A DNA stretch of 34,981 nt from Chloroflexota bacterium (lineage in GTDB: Bacteria; Chloroflexota; Dehalococcoidia; Lucifugimonadales; UBA826). A program made the translations under genes and the position numbers. Every line of letters starts with the position of its first letter. The first letter of the stretch is position 1. The stretch is from the NCBI GenBank assembly GCA_002728195.1, contig PBWI01000039.1:1-34981 (forward strand). Reading direction: 5' to 3'. The notes beneath the pieces are model-generated. The model made no database searches. It was not told where the DNA came from and saw only the letters and a list, made by a program, of their open reading frames with translations. Below are positions 1,272 to 10,317 of this stretch, one piece after another.

Positions 1272-2456
1272 CTATAGCAAGTTCTTTGGTTTTATTATTC
1301 CGAATGAGCTTGTGTATCCGTGGACGTAGGTAGATTCACCCACTGGACCAACTTCTCCATTGCAGAAAAAACCTGTTAACGGTATTTCACCAACAATCTC
1401 TTTAAACATATCTGTGTCGTGATTGGCTTCGCCGTAAAGGTATGAACCTCTTCCAAGGCATGAAAACAAAAGAGCTCCAAATTGATCATGTTTAGAATCG
1501 TCACTGCTATAACTTTCTAGCATTATTTTTAGATTTTCTGAGGAAGTATTTGAATCTCTTAGGTGGAATTGTACTAATTGGCCTTCTCTTAGAATCTCTC
1601 CTATTGCTAATTTTCCTTCATCGGGGTTGGCACCGACTATGTTACGGATCAAAAAATCTTTCGTGGTAGGAGTGTCAATAAAAGGATCGGTGACTGTGCC
1701 TAAGAACAATGAATTTTGGAATAGTTGTTGATCGGGTTCAGAAAGTTGATTATATATCCCCGACAAAACTGTAAAGGGGCTATTGTCATCTAGGCCGGTC
1801 AGTATATTTCGTTCGCATTTGGTGATTCTCATAAGACTTCCGATTGGCTTGCAACCTTGGGCAACTATGGTGTCTATTTCCACGTTGCCATTTAATGCTA
1901 TACCTGCCACGCCACGGTCTGTTGTACCGTTAAAATATATAGCGTTACTTCCCGGTTGTGATCCCCCACTAGCTATACCACCGATAATTGTGGAGTCTGG
2001 AAAAGCGTAGTCCATTCCTTTGATAAGACTCTGTATTTCAACTGTGAAAGGATCTGCAAGAATAATGAATTTGGGTTCTGAGTCTCTTTTCACCTTAACC
2101 AGAGATTCCCATTTTTCAGGTGGTTGATCACCATCTGGCAATTCGCTACCAGTAATGTGAAATGGGGTAATTGAAACATCAGGCATTATTGCAGCCGTCA
2201 GGGCTATCCCTGGCCTATTCTCAACCTCAATTCCTTCACCTATCACACCGTTACCAGAACAGCCTATCAGCGTAGTCTCGGGGAAATATTCTGAAACTAA
2301 TTCCGGTAAATCTTGGTAGAAGGCTTGAAAATCTGGAGACACAAATGCTATTAGCAGGTGCGGTTGACTCTCTAAATCGGCTTCAATTGCCGACAGACAT
2401 TCACGGACGCCAGTTTCAAAATCTGAGGACTCTGATATTTTTGAGGACCAATCCAT
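1272..2456 (-). CDS. FIST-domain sensory protein (FIST_N plus FIST_C)
   Basis: A 394-residue soluble protein made up entirely of the FIST N- and C-terminal modules. FIST_N is recognised by TTLIGCSGNGVIGEG near residues 65-79 and a following GIALTAA strand. FIST_C ends with GFFCNGEVGPVG and YVHGYTSSFGII, the usual family terminus. FIST domains are thought to bind small ligands, possibly amino acids, and are often joined to kinases or chemoreceptors. Here there is no output domain, transmembrane segment or neighbouring kinase, so any signalling partner would be encoded elsewhere. It is the last gene of the minus-strand run, eight bases after the aldolase stop. No clear ribosome-binding site precedes the ATG, which suggests translational coupling. 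Confidence 0.85.
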   Translation of the reverse strand: MDWSSKISESSDFETGVRECLSAIEADLESQPHLLIAFVSPDFQAFYQDLPELVSEYFPETTLIGCSGNGVIGEGIEVENRPGIALTAAIMPDVSITPFHITGSELPDGDQPPEKWESLVKVKRDSEPKFIILADPFTVEIQSLIKGMDYAFPDSTIIGGIASGGSQPGSNAIYFNGTTDRGVAGIALNGNVEIDTIVAQGCKPIGSLMRITKCERNILTGLDDNSPFTVLSGIYNQLSEPDQQLFQNSLFLGTVTDPFIDTPTTKDFLIRNIVGANPDEGKLAIGEILREGQLVQFHLRDSNTSSENLKIMLESYSSDDSKHDQFGALLFSCLGRGSYLYGEANHDTDMFKEIVGEIPLTGFFCNGEVGPVGESTYVHGYTSSFGIIKPKNLL

Positions 2457-2464
2457 GTTTGTGT

Positions 2465-3190
2465 TTAGTAACCTCTGATTCCACTTCCACCTTCTAGCAT
2501 TTCTCTAACGGAGTCTCTGACAGCTATTGTTGCATCCACTGAAACCATTATGTCTTCATTTCGATATTTGCCTGCTGCGTGTATTTTTTCAGTACCTTCG
2601 TCGGTAACTTTGATGCAGTCAGGGTGATCAGGTTCCCCTGGAAATCCCATTGACTGAGCAAGGTCATTGGGCCCTCCAGCAAACACATTTATTCCATCTA
2701 CCTTTAATATTTCGTCGAGATTGTTATAGGCTTTTATGTCTTCTATTTGAGGCATCAATAATAAGTCATCATTGGTGTCCTGCATCATTTTTTTTAAGTC
2801 ATCAAGAAGACCGAATCTTTGGACTCTTTTGCTTGTGTAGCTCCTATGACCCTGCGGTGCGAAGTAGCAACAATCTACCATCGCTTCTGCCTCTTCCCTT
2901 GTATTTACAAACGGAATAGTGATGGCTTTAATGCCCCTGTCAATATAATTCAAAATATTGCTGGGTATCTGGTCTGGTACTCGCATGGTGGGGGTGACTC
3001 CCCATCCATCGCACATTCTGCAGAATCTATCTATTGTTTCCGGGGTGACTGGAGCATGTTGGCCATCGTAATTTACAAAATCCAGACCCATAGCTCCTGC
3101 CAATTCAACCATCTCGTCGGCATAAAAACTCAATGATATGCCATATGATTTTTTGCCTTCTTTCATGTTTGAAATAATTTTGTTAGCCAT
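2465..3190 (-). CDS. HpcH/HpaI-family aldolase (first copy)
   Basis: A class II pyruvate aldolase-type TIM barrel of 241 residues. Members cleave 2-keto-3-deoxy or 4-hydroxy-2-keto acids to pyruvate and an aldehyde, using a divalent metal. Visible family motifs are YDGQHAPV (catalytic His region), MRVP (substrate Arg), MPQIED (metal Glu) and GGPNDLAQSMG (metal Asp). The frame is open further upstream to a TTG at 3235. The ATG at 3190 is chosen because AAGGAG sits nine bases before it, whereas an ATG six bases earlier would leave only three bases. The usual EHG of the His motif reads GQH here. It lies between the MazG-like and FIST genes in the minus-strand run; a second aldolase paralogue is at 11554-12318. 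Substrate unknown. Confidence 0.85.
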   Translation of the reverse strand: MANKIISNMKEGKKSYGISLSFYADEMVELAGAMGLDFVNYDGQHAPVTPETIDRFCRMCDGWGVTPTMRVPDQIPSNILNYIDRGIKAITIPFVNTREEAEAMVDCCYFAPQGHRSYTSKRVQRFGLLDDLKKMMQDTNDDLLLMPQIEDIKAYNNLDEILKVDGINVFAGGPNDLAQSMGFPGEPDHPDCIKVTDEGTEKIHAAGKYRNEDIMVSVDATIAVRDSVREMLEGGSGIRGY

Positions 3191-3235
3191 TTTCATCAAC
3201 TCCTTATTTTTAGGGTTTACCTGCAACGGTGCCAA

Positions 3236-3580
3236 TTACGCTTTTTTATTGCCATGACGGTATGGTCTAGTTTGATTGTAAGACAATTTGGTGGTTAATG
3301 ATTCTTCTAAATCCAATTCAAACTCACCGCATAAGTCAGCTATTCTAATAATGACATCTGCCAATTCCACCGTAAATCCTTCCGGTTTTCCCTTTTCATC
3401 GAACCAATTTTCACTTATGGAATCTTTGCCCTTGACTCGATAGACTTCCAGGGCCTCACTGACTTCACTGTGTATAAGAGCAAGAAGTTCACCTACATTT
3501 CGGTCAGGATCATCCCACCATCCTTTGGATTTGGCAGTTTGATGTGACTCTTGTATGAGACTTTCAATTGTCATAGACAT
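3236..3580 (-). CDS. MazG-like nucleotide pyrophosphohydrolase
   Basis: A 114-residue all-alpha NTP pyrophosphohydrolase of the MazG/dUTPase superfamily. The two metal-binding signatures are present: ExxE in SEVSEALE (E39, E42) and ExxD in ELADVIIRIAD (E72, D75). Such proteins hydrolyse nucleoside triphosphates, often damaged or non-canonical ones, to the monophosphate and pyrophosphate in the cytoplasm. The ATG at 3580 follows a GGAG-like site about eight bases upstream. It sits between an oxidoreductase gene (20 bases) and the aldolase (45 bases). Its place among oxygenases could reflect house-cleaning of oxidised nucleotides, but that is inference; the gene may simply be carried along in the operon. 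Confidence 0.8.
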   Translation of the reverse strand: MSMTIESLIQESHQTAKSKGWWDDPDRNVGELLALIHSEVSEALEVYRVKGKDSISENWFDEKGKPEGFTVELADVIIRIADLCGEFELDLEESLTTKLSYNQTRPYRHGNKKA

Positions 3581-3600: not shown

Positions 3601-4602
3601 CTAGTTTATGAAGGGAGCCAGTGATTGAATGGTTGCTTCATATGCCTCTTTTGTGTCTTCATTTAGGACCAATCTTATTTCATCCACACCTGCATCAAAA
3701 AAGTTTTGCATTTGGGCCGCACATTCTCCTGGAGTGCCAATTATAGTAGTGGCATCAACCATTTCATCAGTAACAAGGCTGGCCGCTTTTCCTCTTTCCT
3801 TATCTAGGTATGCTTTTCTGACCATATCAGCCTCTTCCCCAAAACCGATACGATGCATGTATTGATGATAAAACACTCCCATACCACCAATATAAAAAGA
3901 TATGTGAGGACGCTCCCTGTCTCTTGCAAGACCAGGGTTATCCGTAACGTATATGGAAACTTGAGGTGAAATGGTGATGTCATCAAGGCTTCTACCCACA
4001 GATTCTGCACCTTCTTTGAGCTGAGATACGGCAGCATCCATTCTGGAAGGAGCGAGGAATATAGGCAGCCATCCGTCGGCTATTTCCCCTGTCATTTTGA
4101 GACTAGGAGGACTTAAGGATGCTATGTATATCGGTAAATCCGGCCTATGAGGAGTAAAGCGCAATCTAAACCTGTTTATTTCAAAAAATTCTCCTGAATG
4201 ATCCAATCTTTCACCATTCATAGCTTTTCTCAGTATGTCAACATATTCTCTTATCCTGGTGATGGGTTTTGAAAATTTCTCACCGTGTAAATCTTCAATG
4301 ACTAATTTACCACTCGCGCCTAGTCCCAAAAAAAATCTCCCCTTCGACATAACATCCATGTTTAGCGCTGTCATAGCTAGATTTGCAGGAGATCTCGCAA
4401 ACACTGGAACTATGCTTGTACCAATTTTGATTCGTTTGGTGACAGCTGCTATTTGGGCCAATGAAGTAAAAGCATCTTCCCCCCAAGATTCTCCCATGGT
4501 GACACAGCTATATCCCAAGTCGTCAGCCATAATCGCCAATTCCTTGGTTTCGTCCCAAGATCCACCTGGAGCTCTCAGACCCATTATTCCTACATCACCC
4601 AT
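3601..4602 (-). CDS. Luciferase-like (LLM) F420-dependent oxidoreductase, Mer-like
   Basis: A 333-residue bacterial-luciferase-fold TIM barrel. The pattern GESWGEDAF near residue 38, GTSIVPVFARSPANLAM near 62-78 and FFLGLGAS near 90 is that of the F420-dependent branch related to methylenetetrahydromethanopterin reductase, including the stretch where a non-prolyl cis peptide normally sits. These enzymes move a hydride between F420H2 and a substrate, although some relatives use FMN and oxygen. It is the third flavin or deazaflavin TIM-barrel enzyme in a row on this strand (after 6189-7289 and 4642-5688). F420 use is supported by the Ddn-like gene at 5708-6145. No cofactor-synthesis gene is in view. 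The substrate is unknown. Confidence 0.85.
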   Translation of the reverse strand: MGDVGIMGLRAPGGSWDETKELAIMADDLGYSCVTMGESWGEDAFTSLAQIAAVTKRIKIGTSIVPVFARSPANLAMTALNMDVMSKGRFFLGLGASGKLVIEDLHGEKFSKPITRIREYVDILRKAMNGERLDHSGEFFEINRFRLRFTPHRPDLPIYIASLSPPSLKMTGEIADGWLPIFLAPSRMDAAVSQLKEGAESVGRSLDDITISPQVSIYVTDNPGLARDRERPHISFYIGGMGVFYHQYMHRIGFGEEADMVRKAYLDKERGKAASLVTDEMVDATTIIGTPGECAAQMQNFFDAGVDEIRLVLNEDTKEAYEATIQSLAPFIN

Positions 4603-4641: not shown

Positions 4642-5688
4642 CTAATTTGACCCAATGAATTCGTTTCCAACAATTTCCATAGTATTGATAGCTTCTTCGT
4701 GATTCAAATCTCCCCATTGGAAAGAAAGTAGTAAGAAATTGCAGCCGCTGCGATTTTTGTATTCTCTTAAATATTTAATAACCGATTCTGTAGATCCTGC
4801 GACAACCTGTTCTTTTTCGATTGCTGTTTCGAAATCAATTGTCCATGGAAGTATCCTTTTCCCAATTTCATTTTCAACCATTATTTTAGGCCTGCGACTT
4901 TCTCCACCAGGGAGAGGTTTACGAAAATTGGACCTATAGATTTCATAAGATTTTCTGGCTCTGATTAACGCAGATTGATCAGTCCTTCCAATGAATAGAC
5001 GTTTGGAAACTCCTAAGAGAGGGTTTTGGGAGAAGTGGAACCATGATTTTTCATTCTCATATTTAACACGTGTCTCTGAGTAAAGTTTATTTATCTTTGG
5101 CAGATCAGCAATTGTACCTTCGGTTATCAAATTGCCGCCGATTTGACCAGCTTTCATCGGATTCCCGGCAACCCATATGGGTGGATGTGGCTTTTGAAAT
5201 GGACTTAGTTCCATCCATAGATCTTTGAACTGGTAATGGTCACCTGAGAAGTTTATAAATTCCTTGGTAAGGCCCTGCATTATGATCTCTACAGACTCAT
5301 TATATATATCATCAGAATCTATAGGATTTTGTCCCCACATTGCGAGTTCATCACCCACGGGTGCTCCTCTGCCAAATCCAACATCCAACCTTCCTGAGGT
5401 CAAGTTATCAAGAGTACAGATTTCTTCAATAATGCGGATGGGGTGATGAAGAGGTAGAACATACACCAAAGGACACAATCTGATAGTTGACGTTACTGTT
5501 GCTAGTGCCCCCAAATAGGCCCCTTGAACTGGAGCTGCAGTCAGGGGAGAATGATGGTGCTCAGCCACATGGTAAGAATAAAACCCTAGGGTTTCAGCCT
5601 TTTTCACCATGGATACCCTCTGACTATATTGTTGGTGAAGTGGAAGGGATTTAAGCCGTTCCACGTGATCAAATATTCCTACTTTCAA
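4642..5688 (-). CDS. Luciferase-like (LLM) flavin-dependent monooxygenase, LuxA-type
   Basis: A 348-residue luciferase-fold protein. AEHHHSPLTAAPV (about residues 43-55) is the hallmark of FMN-dependent, LuxA-like alkanal/alkane monooxygenases, followed by PLVYVLPLHHPIRIIEE and GRLDVGFGRGAP. It probably inserts oxygen into an organic substrate using FMNH2 supplied by a separate reductase. The start is TTG at 5686-5688, 19 bases after the Ddn-like stop. No strong ribosome-binding site is visible, so it may depend on translational coupling. It differs clearly from its two neighbouring LLM paralogues in subfamily motifs, so it is not a recent tandem duplicate. Confidence 0.85.
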   Translation of the reverse strand: MKVGIFDHVERLKSLPLHQQYSQRVSMVKKAETLGFYSYHVAEHHHSPLTAAPVQGAYLGALATVTSTIRLCPLVYVLPLHHPIRIIEEICTLDNLTSGRLDVGFGRGAPVGDELAMWGQNPIDSDDIYNESVEIIMQGLTKEFINFSGDHYQFKDLWMELSPFQKPHPPIWVAGNPMKAGQIGGNLITEGTIADLPKINKLYSETRVKYENEKSWFHFSQNPLLGVSKRLFIGRTDQSALIRARKSYEIYRSNFRKPLPGGESRRPKIMVENEIGKRILPWTIDFETAIEKEQVVAGSTESVIKYLREYKNRSGCNFLLLSFQWGDLNHEEAINTMEIVGNEFIGSN

Positions 5689-5707: not shown

Positions 5708-6145
5708 TTATGAAGCCGGTTCAGCTAAAAATATTGGAATGACACGTGTAGTTTTCTGTTGGTATTCATGATAAGGAGGGTATGCGTCTACTGCAATTTC
5801 CCAGAGTCTTTTTCTTTCATCTGAGTCAGTGATTTCCTTTACATTCATGTCGTATATATCTGATCCGTCCTGAATTTTAACGGATGGGTTGGCTTTGAGA
5901 TTGAAATACCATACGGGATGTTTAGGCGCGCCGCCTGTTGAGGCGACTAATATGTAGTTTGAGCCATCGACCGCTTTCATAAGAGGCGTTTTCCTCAACG
6001 CACCGGTTTTATTTCCAGTATTTGTGACGATTATGACAGGAAGACCTGTCTCCCTCAGAGTGGTCCCTTCTTTTCCGCCGCTGGATTCATATAGTTCAAC
6101 TTGTTCTCTAACCCAGTCCCTAGGACTTGGAATGTATTCGGACAT
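5708..6145 (-). CDS. Deazaflavin (F420)-dependent nitroreductase-family protein, Ddn-like
   Basis: A 145-residue split-beta-barrel protein of the Ddn family. The diagnostic core is VTNTGNKTGALRKTPLMK (about residues 40-57), matching the TGRKSG-RKTPL pattern that contacts F420, followed by ILVASTGGAPKHPVWYFNL. Family members use F420H2 to reduce quinones, enones or nitro compounds. The gene lies inside a run of luciferase-fold oxidoreductases, 43 bases after the SsuD-like gene, which makes the organism a likely F420 producer. The stop is 19 bases before the next gene. The physiological substrate is not evident. Confidence 0.87.
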   Translation of the reverse strand: MSEYIPSPRDWVREQVELYESSGGKEGTTLRETGLPVIIVTNTGNKTGALRKTPLMKAVDGSNYILVASTGGAPKHPVWYFNLKANPSVKIQDGSDIYDMNVKEITDSDERKRLWEIAVDAYPPYHEYQQKTTRVIPIFLAEPAS

Positions 6146-6188: not shown

Positions 6189-7289
6189 TTAAGCAATCGC
6201 AGACACTACATTTTCTTTATGATACTTTTTTACCTTTTCCCGAAGCAATGGTATTAGTTCCTTGCCCCAGTATATAGCGTCTTCAATGGGATTGAATCCT
6301 CTAATTAAGATAGTAGTGCCACCAATTTTGTAGTAATTTAGCAGGGATTCAGCCACTTGGTCAGCAGTTCCGACTAGAGCAGTACTGTTTCCTGTCCCGC
6401 CGGTAGCAGCAGCAATTGGCATATAAAGTCGCTCGTCCTGTATGTCTCCCTGTTTGGCAAAGTACACTAGCCTCTTTGATCCGATGGACATGGTTCTATC
6501 ATTGAATGGGGCATTTTTGTCTTGAACTGCATCCAAGGTGTCATACGCTCTTTCCCAAGCCTCTTTTTCAGTATCTGCAACTATAGGTCTGGTAGAAACG
6601 GAGAACCTCACCTCACTAACGTCTCTTCCCGCATCTCTTACTCGCCTCTTAAAATCATTGATTTTTTTACTAACATCATTGAGGGGTTCTCCAAAAGTGG
6701 CATAAACGTCACATTCTTTAGCTCCAATGTTTAGAGCTATCTCAGAAGATCCTCCAAAATACACTGGTATTCTAGGTTTTTGATAGCAATCCACATCACT
6801 AAACGCCTGATTAAATTTGTAAAACTCGCCAGAGAAATCAAAGGGGGAATCCTCACTCCAAATCCTCTTAACTATGTGCATGAATTCACCAGATCTTCTG
6901 TATCTGTCCTCTTTAGTCAAAAAATCCCCGTCTTTCTGTTGCTCAACTTCTGAACCTCCACTGATTATATGAAGTGCAATCCTGCCCTCTGTGAGCTGGT
7001 CGAAAGTCGCAGCTTTTCTTGCGAGTAAAGTGGGACTAACAAAACCTGGTCTATGAGCGATTAAGAACCCCAATTTTTTTGTGTGTGCCGCTGCATGCAT
7101 AGCTACAATAAATCCGTCAGCGGCGCTTGATCTGTAGCCTACTAAAACTTTGTCAAAACCACTATTTTCATGAGCTTTTGCAAACTCAATGATATGGTCC
7201 CCGCTAACACCGCTGCCAATGACGGAGACTTGATTTTTACTTGATGTCCCTTTTTCAGCGCCTATCATCCCGATTATTTCTACGCTCAT
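6189..7289 (-). CDS. SsuD-like FMNH2-dependent monooxygenase (alkanesulfonate monooxygenase family)
   Basis: A 366-residue luciferase-fold protein of the SsuD/SfnG branch. It shows GFLIAHRPGFVSPTLLARK (about residues 74-92), then ATFDQLTEGR and LHIISGG, and ends with an IRGFNPIEDAIYWG segment resembling the SsuD C-terminal active-site region. SsuD releases sulfite from alkanesulfonates using FMNH2 and oxygen; relatives act on methanesulfonate, dimethylsulfone or non-sulfur substrates. The ATG follows an AAGGA site at good distance. There is no SsuE reductase or sulfonate transporter nearby, so sulfonate use is only a family-level suggestion. It is the first of four consecutive flavin/F420 enzymes on this strand. 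Confidence 0.83.
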   Translation of the reverse strand: MSVEIIGMIGAEKGTSSKNQVSVIGSGVSGDHIIEFAKAHENSGFDKVLVGYRSSAADGFIVAMHAAAHTKKLGFLIAHRPGFVSPTLLARKAATFDQLTEGRIALHIISGGSEVEQQKDGDFLTKEDRYRRSGEFMHIVKRIWSEDSPFDFSGEFYKFNQAFSDVDCYQKPRIPVYFGGSSEIALNIGAKECDVYATFGEPLNDVSKKINDFKRRVRDAGRDVSEVRFSVSTRPIVADTEKEAWERAYDTLDAVQDKNAPFNDRTMSIGSKRLVYFAKQGDIQDERLYMPIAAATGGTGNSTALVGTADQVAESLLNYYKIGGTTILIRGFNPIEDAIYWGKELIPLLREKVKKYHKENVVSAIA

Positions 7290-7304: not shown

Positions 7305-8276
7305 TTAATCTTCCCAATAATTGCCTTGGGATATTTGGTTGACGATGTTTTCGGAAAATTCCCATAATTGTTTTGCCATTGCTTGATCTGCTCCGTGTCT
7401 CGATGGTGCCTCAATATTGCAGTTAGAAAAATATTTACCACTTATGTATTTGAGGTCTGGATGAGTACTCGCATATATTTGAGTGGCGGCACCTTGATGA
7501 ATATTTTTGAAGAGCAATTTATCCGCTACAACTGCCCCAAATTTTATGAGAGGGTTATAGTTCCGAAGTAGATTAGTTCTGATCACTCCAGGGTGGACAG
7601 CATTGGCTGTTTGATCGCTACCTTCTAATCGGTTGGCCAACTCATTAGAGAATAAAAGATTCGCCAATTTCGAGTGCCCGTAAGCTTTATGAGGGTTGTA
7701 TTGGTTAGAGCCAGAAAAGTTACCGAATTGGATTCCGTCATGATATGAAAAAACTTTGTGTGCGGAGCTAGATACCACAGTTACCCTGGCTTCATTAGTG
7801 AGTAATGGCATCAGTAGATTCACCAGCATAAAGTGGCCAATATGATTGGTTAAAAATTGAAGTTCGACACCATATTTTTGTTGCAACTGTGGGAGTGCCA
7901 TTATCCCTGCGTTGCAGATGATTGAGTCTATTCGAATCCCTAAATTAAATAGATGATTTGCGCATTTGGTGATGGAATGTGGTTCAGATAAATCACATTC
8001 AATGGGGAGGAATTCGGGGTTTGCACTTGGTTTTATGGCATTGGCTTTTTCAATGGTTCTCGCCATGCCTATTACTTTGGCCCCCCTTAAAGATAAAACT
8101 CTCACCGTCTCTAACCCAAGCCCTGAATTTGCTCCTGTAACTACGATCGTCTTGCCTGTAAGATCGATGGATTTGGTTACTTCTTCTGCTGTTGTGTGGA
8201 ATCCCAAACCGTTTGGTCCATTCTTGCCAAAACGATCCATGAACGGAATTCGTGAACTTGATAATGATTCTATCAA
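7305..8276 (-). CDS. Short-chain dehydrogenase/reductase, retinol-dehydrogenase-like
   Basis: A 323-residue classical-type SDR with an N-terminal extension of about 40 residues before the Rossmann fold. Motifs in order are TGANSGLG (nucleotide binding), NAG, SSSAH with the catalytic Ser, and YGHSK with the catalytic Tyr and Lys; VHPGVIRTNL follows. The pattern is closest to the retinol dehydrogenase/WW-oxidoreductase-like group, which often use NADP(H). The TTG start at 8274-8276 is supported by GAAGG nine bases upstream; the in-frame ATG at 8240 has no such site. It probably oxidises or reduces an alcohol or carbonyl made by the adjacent monooxygenases, by inference from context. Confidence 0.85.
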   Translation of the reverse strand: MIESLSSSRIPFMDRFGKNGPNGLGFHTTAEEVTKSIDLTGKTIVVTGANSGLGLETVRVLSLRGAKVIGMARTIEKANAIKPSANPEFLPIECDLSEPHSITKCANHLFNLGIRIDSIICNAGIMALPQLQQKYGVELQFLTNHIGHFMLVNLLMPLLTNEARVTVVSSSAHKVFSYHDGIQFGNFSGSNQYNPHKAYGHSKLANLLFSNELANRLEGSDQTANAVHPGVIRTNLLRNYNPLIKFGAVVADKLLFKNIHQGAATQIYASTHPDLKYISGKYFSNCNIEAPSRHGADQAMAKQLWEFSENIVNQISQGNYWED

Positions 8277-8309: not shown

Positions 8310-8801
8310 CTAGTATTCATACACTGCACACCGCTCGCAAATCGTCTCCGGTATAAGGCCCACTGCGATTAAAATCTTGAATACTTTGCAAGCAAAGCAG
8401 TATCCGAATACCGATTCTAGGAAGGCAAATATACTCAGGACTGCAAGTAGAAGTATGCAAATATAATGGAGATTAGCTAACCAAAAGATAAAAATAAATG
8501 TCGAAAATATTAGGCCAATACTTTGGGCAAAACGTTTGGGTGGGCCTGGCACTAATTTTTCATCAAAATTTAATTTGGGAACTAGAAATTTTGTGACTAA
8601 AAGTGCAAGGGGGCTGACTTTTGGACCAGATGAAACCCTAGCCAAAAAACCATAGGCCATTATCAACAAGACTACCCAAGCAAAGTTAACTTCCAGACTG
8701 ATTAAGCATATAGATAGGAGAGACATTAAAAGCACCCCAGATGCTACTAACCGTGCAGCTGGTTCATTTATCAGTTCGGGAAATGAAAAGAATTCTTTCA
8801 T
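8310..8801 (-). CDS. DUF4395 family integral membrane protein
   Basis: A 163-residue protein with about four transmembrane segments. It shows the DUF4395 signature: INEPAARLVA near the N terminus, GPKVSPLALL and PGPPKRFAQSIG in the middle, and a Cys-rich terminus with YCFACK and IPETICERC. Members of this family often lie beside thioredoxin or other thiol-redox genes. Here it directly follows the peroxiredoxin gene (17 bases), which fits a role in membrane thiol redox handling. The four terminal cysteines arranged as two CxxC pairs could be redox-active; biochemical function is unknown. Confidence 0.85.
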   Translation of the reverse strand: MKEFFSFPELINEPAARLVASGVLLMSLLSICLISLEVNFAWVVLLIMAYGFLARVSSGPKVSPLALLVTKFLVPKLNFDEKLVPGPPKRFAQSIGLIFSTFIFIFWLANLHYICILLLAVLSIFAFLESVFGYCFACKVFKILIAVGLIPETICERCAVYEY

Positions 8802-8818: not shown

Positions 8819-9472
8819 TTATAAATTGGGTTGAGGAGTGGTTCTAAGGTATTCTTTTATTATCGTGTGACCTTTTGGGAATTTGCCTGGGATTTCTTCT
8901 GTAGCTACTGCAGGTACTACGATACAATCCTGTCCATCTTCCCAGTCAGCTGGAGTAGCGACTTGGTAATTCGCAGTAAGTTGAAGGGAGTCCAAAACCC
9001 GTAGGATTTCGCTAAAATTTCTTCCTGTTGATGCTGGGTAAGAGATGATTAATTTCACCAATTTATCCGGTCCAATAATGAATACTGACCTAACTGTTAA
9101 GGTGTCACTTGCATTCGGGTGTATCATTCCGTACGAGTCAGCTATTTCCTTATTGGGATCTTCAACAAGCGGGAAATCTACATTGGCATTTTGAGTCTCA
9201 TTAACATCCTTTATCCACTCATTGTGTGATTCAAGGGGAGTGAGATCAGCCTTGGTACCAACACTGACTACAAGTACCTTTGCATTTCTTTTGGAGAATT
9301 CAGATTTTAAATTTGCAACCCTTCCTATCTCAGTAGTGCATACTGGGGTAAAATCGGCTGGGTGAGACATAAACACGCCCCATTGATCTCCAAGCCAGTC
9401 ATGGAAATTGATCTCTCCTTGAGTGGTATTTGCTGTGAAATTAGGGGCTTCGTCTCCAATTCGTAGGCTCAT
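8819..9472 (-). CDS. Peroxiredoxin, 1-Cys Prx6 type
   Basis: A 217-residue AhpC/TSA-family peroxidase of Prx6 type. The active-site loop PADFTPVCTTE places the peroxidatic cysteine at C45 and Thr at T42. The long C-terminal domain with YPASTGRNFSEILRVLDS and VATPADWEDGQD is typical of Prx6. A second Cys is present near the end (ECIV-type position DCIV) but not in the usual 2-Cys arrangement. It reduces hydrogen peroxide and organic peroxides. AGGAG precedes the ATG by six bases. An intrinsic terminator abuts this ribosome-binding site upstream (see 9485-9509), so expression probably depends on read-through. It heads the minus-strand run of oxygenases, which can leak peroxide. Confidence 0.92.
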   Translation of the reverse strand: MSLRIGDEAPNFTANTTQGEINFHDWLGDQWGVFMSHPADFTPVCTTEIGRVANLKSEFSKRNAKVLVVSVGTKADLTPLESHNEWIKDVNETQNANVDFPLVEDPNKEIADSYGMIHPNASDTLTVRSVFIIGPDKLVKLIISYPASTGRNFSEILRVLDSLQLTANYQVATPADWEDGQDCIVVPAVATEEIPGKFPKGHTIIKEYLRTTPQPNL

Positions 9473-9484
9473 TTTTTCTCCTAA

Positions 9485-9509
9485 TAAAAAAACCCCGCTT
9501 TTGCGGGGT
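9485..9509 (-). terminator. Intrinsic terminator in the peroxiredoxin leader (attenuator candidate)
   Basis: On the minus strand a 7-bp GC-rich stem (ACCCCGC with GCGGGGT, four-base AAAA loop) is followed at once by seven T residues, a textbook Rho-independent terminator. It ends only a few bases before the AGGAG ribosome-binding site of the peroxiredoxin gene at 8819-9472. No minus-strand coding gene precedes it within about 700 bases, since the gene at 9772-10317 is on the other strand. It therefore most likely ends a short leader RNA rather than an upstream operon. Confidence 0.85.
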
Positions 9510-9512
9510 CTT

Positions 9513-9616
9513 CTACTTGATCAGATGGTCTTTTTTTAGCGAACGATCAGTACCCCGAACCTCGTGGGCGGGTACAACAAGAACAGTTATTTGAGTTTAT
9601 CGATAGTTGCATCTTG
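9513..9616 (-). ncRNA. Structured 5' leader of the peroxiredoxin gene, possible antiterminator or small RNA
   Basis: Read on the minus strand, this leader can fold in two exclusive ways. Hairpin I pairs GUACCC with GGGUAC (9550-9575). Alternatively CGGGGU (9552-9557), the 3' part of that hairpin, pairs with ACCCCG, the 5' arm of the terminator (9504-9509). This is reinforced by an inner helix of UGAUCG (9544-9549) with UGAUCA (9518-9523). Such mutually exclusive pairings are the architecture of a riboswitch or attenuator. I do not recognise a known riboswitch class. It could instead be a free small RNA that ends at the terminator. The 5' end is estimated from the putative promoter. Confidence 0.45.
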
Positions 9617-9622
9617 CCAACC

Positions 9623-9652
9623 ATCCTAAAACACTTTATGCCAAGTTTTCAA
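9623..9652 (-). promoter_or_regulatory. Putative sigma-70 type promoter for the peroxiredoxin leader
   Basis: On the minus strand TTGAAA (9647-9652, five of six to the -35 consensus) is followed after 18 bases by TAGGAT (9623-9628, four of six to the -10 consensus). Transcription would begin near 9616 and give a leader of about 140 bases before the peroxiredoxin ATG. The 299-base interval 9473-9771 holds this promoter, the leader, the terminator and the upstream region of the plus-strand gene at 9772; I see no further gene in it. Confidence 0.4.
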
Positions 9653-9771
9653 GTAGTGAGGGTGGAAATTTCATAGCATAATTTATCTTTTCTTATCATT
9701 GGTAATTGATTTAACATGGTTGAAGTTAAAGGGAATGTTTCCGTCGGCGATTGTTTCAAGAGGTTTTACTA

Positions 9772-10317
9772 ATGACTGTTTCAGCCTTAATAGTACTGGC
9801 TTTGCGGGTAATTCTTCCATTATCAATATTTAGAAATAGGATAACTGGCGCCATTCTGTCTATGGCATTGGACCTACTTGATGTAGTGATAGTAGATGCT
9901 TTGCAAGTAGCTTTAGGTGAGGCTCCGGTTGGCTTTGGGGAAAATTACCAAATGTTCGACAAGTGGCTAGATATGTATTACTTGTCAATAGAAGCGGTAG
10001 TTTGCTTGGGTTGGCCAAACCGGTTAGCGAAGTTCGCCGCTATTGTTCTTTTTGTATTCCGCTTGGCAGGTATCTCCGCTTTTGAAATAACAGGAGAAGA
10101 GTATAGGAAGCTTATTTTCTTTTTCCCTAACCTTTTTGAGAATTTTTTCCTGTATTACATAATCTGTGATAGATTCGCGCCTCGACTTATCCCAACAAGA
10201 ATAAAATCACTCTTGTTCGTTTTATTGCTTCTATATGTGCCGAAATTTGCTCAAGAATATGTTTTGCATTTTGCAGAAATTAAGCCGTGGCAATGGGTTA
10301 GGGCCAAGGTCCTTTAG
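9772..10317 (+). CDS. Polytopic membrane protein of unknown function
   Basis: A 181-residue protein with five or six predicted membrane segments, among them SALIVLALRVILPLSIF, AAIVLFVFRLAGISAF and SLLFVLLLLYVPKF. I do not recognise a named family. Striking are acidic and aromatic residues inside or beside membrane segments: ALDLLDVVIVDAL, FDKWLDMYYLSIEA, FEITGEEYRK and FPNLFENFFLYY. Such buried polar motifs usually mark an active site or a transport path. The frame is open to a TTG at 9751, but the ATG at 9772 is chosen because AAGAGG lies eight bases before it. It is a lone plus-strand gene between two minus-strand operons and converges on the monooxygenase at 10334 with 16 bases between them. 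Confidence 0.75.
   Translation: MTVSALIVLALRVILPLSIFRNRITGAILSMALDLLDVVIVDALQVALGEAPVGFGENYQMFDKWLDMYYLSIEAVVCLGWPNRLAKFAAIVLFVFRLAGISAFEITGEEYRKLIFFFPNLFENFFLYYIICDRFAPRLIPTRIKSLLFVLLLLYVPKFAQEYVLHFAEIKPWQWVRAKVL

Follow-up and report, generated by a model that had tools for sequence, protein, structure and literature searches.

A candidate cysteine-codon transcription attenuator in front of a Prx6 operon in the SAR202 order of Chloroflexota

In the trp, his and phe attenuators of enterobacteria, RNA arms pair as 1:2, 2:3 and 3:4 and the stall codons lie within arm 1 or beside it, and the genes downstream of amino-acid attenuators usually, though not obligatorily, serve the supply of that amino acid. 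For cysteine, attenuation by leaderless polycysteine sORFs has been described in mycobacteria (Canestrari 2020, as related in PMC9031893 and PMC13236596). It was also proposed for Actinobacteria, without conserved terminator hairpins upstream of the cys operons (PMC1262725). In Rhodobacterales, ribosome-mediated attenuation was proposed for the uORFC-8-2 motif, which lies before cysS (PMC8632094). The same work describes the PBC-28-3 motif before ahpC, which resembles the element reported here as a structured RNA in front of a peroxiredoxin gene, but consists of one long covarying stem for which protein binding was proposed, with no uORF or terminator described (PMC8632094).

The element lies in a window (the whole stretch of DNA analysed) of 34,981 nt whose closest records are SAR202/Dehalococcoidia metagenome-assembled genomes. 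A promoter-like pair, TTGAAA-N18-TAGGAT, heads the leader and is followed in order by a uORF, a hairpin, a terminator, a ribosome-binding site and the Prx6 gene (9652 to 8819, minus strand). The parts of the leader are:

9647-9652, minus strand: predicted -35 hexamer TTGAAA, kept as TTGAAA or TTGATA in all five genus members
9623-9628, minus strand: predicted -10 hexamer TAGGAT, exactly 10 nt 5' of the uORF ATG in five of five genus members
9547-9612, minus strand: uORF encoding the leader peptide MQLSINSNNCSCCTRPRGSGY and ending in a stop; 21 codons, no indel across five species
9574-9585, minus strand: Cys codon cluster TGT TCT TGT TGT (Cys-Ser-Cys-Cys), invariant in the genus; other leaders also have Cys clusters
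9550-9575, minus strand: hairpin 1:2, GUACCC..GGGGUAC, overlapping the end of the last Cys codon
9545-9557, minus strand: antiterminator 5' strand CGGGGUACUGAUC, made up of the uORF end, the stop codon and the next bases
9504-9522, minus strand: antiterminator 3' strand GAUCAAGUAGAAGACCCCG, which takes in the 5' arm of the terminator
9486-9512, minus strand: intrinsic terminator, stem AAGACCCCGC-AAAA-GCGGGGTTTT plus T-run
9478-9482, minus strand: Shine-Dalgarno sequence AGGAG of Prx6

A first-pass annotation of the window had reported a minus-strand terminator abutting the Prx6 ribosome-binding site. This terminator is present, with a stem of 10 pairs, AAGACCCCGCAAAAGCGGGGTTTT-TTTATTAG (9512-9489), that leads into the T-run, and the Prx6 start codon (9472) lies 13 nt 3' of the T-run with AGGAG in the gap. 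A gap of 13 nt is too short to contain a promoter. The terminator also has no minus-strand gene upstream, as had been noted; the nearest ORF on that side, 9751-10317, has plus-strand orientation. We likewise recovered the complementarity between CGGGGU (9557-9552, within the hairpin 9575-9550) and the terminator arm ACCCCG (9509-9504), and the inner helix of CUGAUC (9549-9544) with GAUCAA (9522-9517).

The key element absent from that annotation is the uORF. The ORF list holds a small minus-strand frame at 9624-9547, MVGKMQLSINSNNCSCCTRPRGSGY, which extends over the entire 5' half of the element. As its start we rejected the ATG at 9624, which is inside the predicted promoter and not conserved, in favour of that at 9612. 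The constant distance of the -10 hexamer from this ATG in the genus predicts a near-leaderless uORF with only about 4 nt of 5' UTR. Its three Cys codons lie directly 5' of the hairpin, and the cluster ends at the hairpin foot. The 191-nt leader is more stable than 200 of 200 dinucleotide shuffles (z -2.9).

The arrangement of these parts and the comparison of leaders given below make it very probable that the element is a trp-like, ribosome-mediated transcription attenuator that reads cysteine codons. The sequences establish which parts are present and in what order, that these are conserved although their letters change, and that the pairing is preserved; we infer that the uORF is translated, that the ribosome stalls on it and that cysteinyl-tRNA is the signal. 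Charged tRNA-Cys is the likely signal because a conserved Cys-codon ORF is placed as in the trp and his leaders. Transcription is predicted to start about 4 nt 5' of the uORF. When cysteinyl-tRNA is plentiful, the ribosome would reach the uORF stop codon and cover CGGGGUACUGAUC, and the terminator would form and end transcription before Prx6. When it is scarce, the ribosome would stall on UGU-UCU-UGU-UGU and hold hairpin 1:2 open; CGGGGUACUGAUC could then pair with GAUCAAGUAGAAGACCCCG, block the terminator and let RNA polymerase enter the ten-gene operon.

With the trp, his and phe attenuators the leader shares the arm arrangement, a stop codon near arm 2, a run of codons for one amino acid (3 Cys of 4 codons) and an intrinsic terminator before the first gene. 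A ribosome-position-dependent antiterminator that excludes the terminator is present by prediction, some leaders being ambiguous. It differs from them in its Cys codons, its near-leaderless uORF and the lack of evident amino-acid biosynthesis genes downstream. The mycobacterial sORFs, as far as they are portrayed in the two accounts cited above, are similar in that a Cys-rich short ORF lies at or near the transcript 5' end, several occur per genome and cysteine is the probable signal; judged by predicted promoters, the SAR202 element is a leaderless Cys-rich sORF in the same sense. In those accounts, however, translation is controlled by hiding or freeing the downstream ribosome-binding site, whereas an intrinsic terminator and an explicit antiterminator are found here, in another phylum and in front of Prx6, DUF4395 and 460-aa protein genes, which suggests a similar function in a different subtype. 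The uORFC-8-2 motif has tandem Cys codons within the first stem and then an intrinsic terminator, as here. It is located before cysS in Alphaproteobacteria, whereas the element described here precedes Prx6, and its sequence and peptide are unrelated to the SAR202 leader.

Covariance models of Rfam at gathering score gave no match anywhere in the window, T-box and other riboswitches included, in agreement with the earlier remark that the leader belongs to no known class. The best sub-threshold match by bit score on the same strand and span was the phenylalanine leader-peptide attenuator (Phe_leader; 27.2 bits against a cut-off of 55, E 0.012, covering 9483-9596), and lax E-values assigned no class to the leader. 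An NCBIfam search with ten leader peptides gave no match.

To follow the element across relatives, we gathered Prx6 leaders from the order (n=63) and from other phyla (n=73) and searched them for an ORF of at most 45 codons with a Cys pair and, 10-60 nt further on, a terminator with 7 or more pairs. A Cys-rich uORF with terminator precedes Prx6 in 18 of the 63 leaders of the order (L119 being a weak case), compared to none of the 73 leaders from other phyla, none of the 63 order leaders read on the reverse strand, and 2 matches over 20 shuffled sets of 63 (about 0.1 per set). In farther relatives the leader stands in front of Prx6 alone or of Prx6 and DUF4395, and some Prx6 orthologues (L009, L012, L016, distant clades) have no Cys leader. 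A predicted -10 element lies 6-10 nt 5' of the uORF ATG in most leaders, and near-leaderless promoters were found in 16 of 27 leaders, with 0.7 expected. The leader peptides diverge widely (MKFYLTQTCCCCCCQNDNGVTSRV, MIRAVTQVSCCCPVEISAGGIL, MEKIINNLYSKFCCCQNNEVF and others) and have the Cys run as their common part, which comprises 2 to 9 codons with variable spacing (CC, CxC, CCC, CCCCCC) in otherwise unrelated peptides. A conserved short ORF of another genus, (M/V)T(V/A)YLR(G/S)CCVIEIIA, lies upstream of Prx6 without a clear terminator (L117, L118, L119); it is perhaps a translational version of the device.

Preservation of the pairing was assessed from the duplex energy between the post-Cys sequence and the 5' side of the terminator, using all swaps between leaders with row and column means removed. 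True pairs were favoured with z -6.0 in 22 leaders and z -7.4 in 29 leaders, in both cases with 0 of 200,000 permutations as good, and with z -3.5 (p 6e-4) in Prx6 leaders alone. The test is conservative because homologous leaders in the set also pair well when swapped. We left column-by-column covariation within the genus aside because there are five sequences and the arms are almost invariant. Between leaders, the arms change and still match (CGGGGU:ACCCCG, GUGGGGG:CCCCCAC, GAGGUUUCUUU:AAAGAGACCUC and GAGGUUUGUC:GACAAACCCCUC). The compensatory base changes that had been set beforehand as a test of the leader are thus present, and the comparison of leaders strongly supports the mutually exclusive terminator and antiterminator folds proposed in the first-pass annotation.

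In a crude masking model, the RNA was folded up to the terminator 5' arm with a ribosome footprint of 30 nt. For the Prx6 leader of this window, the terminator arm was held upstream with a probability of 0.70 when the ribosome was on the Cys codons compared to 0.08 at the stop codon; the corresponding values were 0.86 and 0.03 for G004, 0.74 and 0.18 for G135, and 0.62 and 0.01 for PW3.168. Leaders of G016, G040 and G055 showed little difference between the stall and stop states, and in the Prx6 leader here the antiterminator already has a probability of 0.69 when no ribosome is present. With the 3' arm present, almost all masked folds favour the terminator at equilibrium; therefore, the switch must be kinetic and decided during transcription, as in trp.

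The device is not confined to Prx6. It also precedes DUF4395 genes that stand apart from Prx6 (G055, G050, G030, G046, G026, G016), and in G009 the Cys leader reaches DUF4395 through a 219-aa gene (L165:1630-2289, plus strand), in a genome without Prx6. Genes for a 460-aa protein have a Cys-rich or KDDLFHL leader at 13 of 15 places, the leaders being read partly by eye. This protein (L168:66-1448, minus strand; L248-L262), presumed to be exported, has no relative in Pfam, NCBIfam or PDB, and its gene precedes DUF4395 in two genomes. A looser DNA pattern of Cys codons plus terminator was too noisy over 16 genomes. Tighter patterns, applied to the genome of the window itself, returned only the Prx6 leader and one more (C99:70-167), with the peptide MDYGNTCCICCCCKDEERSMDL, which may have a longer N-terminus and lies at a contig end. 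Because of the leader and an N-terminal similarity, the gene that follows (C99, L245:1-320) presumably encodes the 460-aa protein. The same device before DUF4395 and 460-aa genes, and its second copy in the genome, point to a small cysteine regulon.

A second leader type, R(F/Y/L)(K/E/D)DDLFHL followed by Cys or, in G042, by a stop, occurs seven times among leaders of these three gene families (Prx6, DUF4395, 460-aa); leader ORFs of the DDLFHL type are found in L013, L014, L023, L184, L253, L255 and L260, in other families. The residues DDLFHL never change, although five of their six codons differ between leaders, by synonymous substitutions only, which points to selection on the peptide; the G042 variant, KDDLFHL-stop, has no Cys codon. 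The DDLFHL leader is perhaps an arrest peptide, to judge from this codon pattern; a literature search for DDLFHL found nothing. We tentatively raise the possibility that Prx6, DUF4395 and the 460-aa protein form a cysteine regulon with both leader types, a Cys-codon counter and an arrest peptide that senses cysteine or a sulfur compound, and that these leaders mark new sulfur-acquisition genes, with the SAR202 monooxygenases acting partly on organosulfur compounds.

The anatomy of the main leader type could also serve a nascent Cys-rich peptide that is itself the sensor, of a metal, an oxidant or reactive sulfur, in which case the input would be redox or metal state instead of tRNA charging. 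In favour of such a sensor, the targets include the peroxiredoxin and the CxxC membrane protein, and the second class (RF/YKDDLFHL-C/stop) is indeed kept as a peptide with synonymous codon changes. The main-class peptide, in contrast, is unconserved outside the Cys run, and variable Cys number and spacing are expected from codon counting and not from a binding site. Taken together, we regard peptide sensing as unlikely.

The signal originally suggested was a metabolite (peroxide, flavin or another) bound by the RNA, which would make the element a riboswitch governing the terminator and the ORF incidental. This part of the attenuator interpretation was not supported, since the Cys-codon ORF sits as in the trp and his leaders; the exclusive folds were. 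Terminator and antiterminator both exist, as in a riboswitch, but the relatives have no conserved aptamer-like core and conserve the Cys-codon-rich ORF and the pairing logic instead, and no riboswitch of Rfam matched, so that we consider metabolite binding highly improbable. A strong terminator just 5' of a gene can also end antisense or small RNAs, and the hairpin might simply terminate a small RNA or a transcript from upstream, its complementarity being due to chance. The absence of an upstream minus-strand gene, the promoter and ORF directly in front, and the complementarity preserved despite changed sequence leave this explanation scarcely credible.

Under attenuation by cysteine codons, the genes exposed to control would be those of the following run:

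8819-9472, minus strand: Prx6-type 1-Cys peroxiredoxin, first structural gene
8310-8801, minus strand: DUF4395 membrane protein with two invariant CxxC pairs (four invariant cysteines)
7305-8276, minus strand: short-chain dehydrogenase (SDR)
6189-7289, minus strand: luciferase-like monooxygenase, nearest SsuD/SfnG (NCBIfam)
5708-6145, minus strand: F420H2-dependent quinone reductase/nitroreductase family protein
4642-5688, minus strand: luciferase-like monooxygenase
3601-4602, minus strand: luciferase-like, F420-dependent-type oxidoreductase
3236-3580, minus strand: 114-aa protein without family, kept in five species
2465-3235, minus strand: HpcH/HpaI aldolase
1272-2456, minus strand: FIST-domain protein, last gene of the run

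Five species of the genus share this gene order; three of them have a shortened 6189-7289 gene or lack it, and one lacks the 4642-5688 gene. The 6189-7289 enzyme scores 222 bits with SsuD and 156 bits with SfnG in NCBIfam, both well under the curated cut-offs, and its proximity to the SsuD alkanesulfonate monooxygenases suggests organosulfur scavenging. A PDB fold search with the predicted helical model of the DUF4395 protein (pLDDT 72) gave no match. The PAPS-reductase family gave only partial matches of 20-23 bits in 16 family genomes, which are incomplete, and those with a listed position all fall within a frame of about 559 codons; these genomes therefore give no sign that this family carries out assimilatory sulfate reduction. 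The operon probably serves organosulfur salvage when cysteine is short, and Prx6 and DUF4395 would protect thiols or act against peroxide. It would also suit a response to oxidative stress, in which cysteine is depleted by oxidation.

Whether SAR202 sulfonate monooxygenases have a role in carbon, energy or sulfur supply was left open (PMC5395668). If a shortage of cysteine induces flavin/F420 monooxygenase-type genes, the enzymes probably act on organosulfur compounds. The leader makes genes of unknown role accessible through their regulation, in a lineage that is abundant in the ocean and uncultured; its sequences are a possible bait for more regulon members, and it indicates the DUF4395 and 460-aa proteins, families without known function, as members of the cysteine regulon. 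Cysteine attenuators themselves are known; what is new is their occurrence in this phylum, with an intrinsic terminator and in front of these targets, together with the second conserved leader peptide (KDDLFHL-C/stop). The literature searched, largely papers available without subscription, yielded no report of cysteine attenuation in Chloroflexota or before a peroxiredoxin gene, and the present leaders, read from sequence, would extend cysteine attenuation with intrinsic terminators to Chloroflexota.

We rejected cysS, an expected target, as a regulon member, as none of 30 cysS leaders of the SAR202 order has the device; therefore, the device is general neither to cysteine-related genes nor to the detection method. 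A conserved frame MEA(C/G)VCGCYN..., without terminator, does lie before cysS in L280, L283, L284, L288, L289, L292, L293 and L299, and may be another reading frame of the gene in front of it. A further pattern hit, G000:C11:44495-44595, has counterparts in six genus genomes and is followed by a terminator; from the consensus alone, we take it to be TPP-riboswitch-like.
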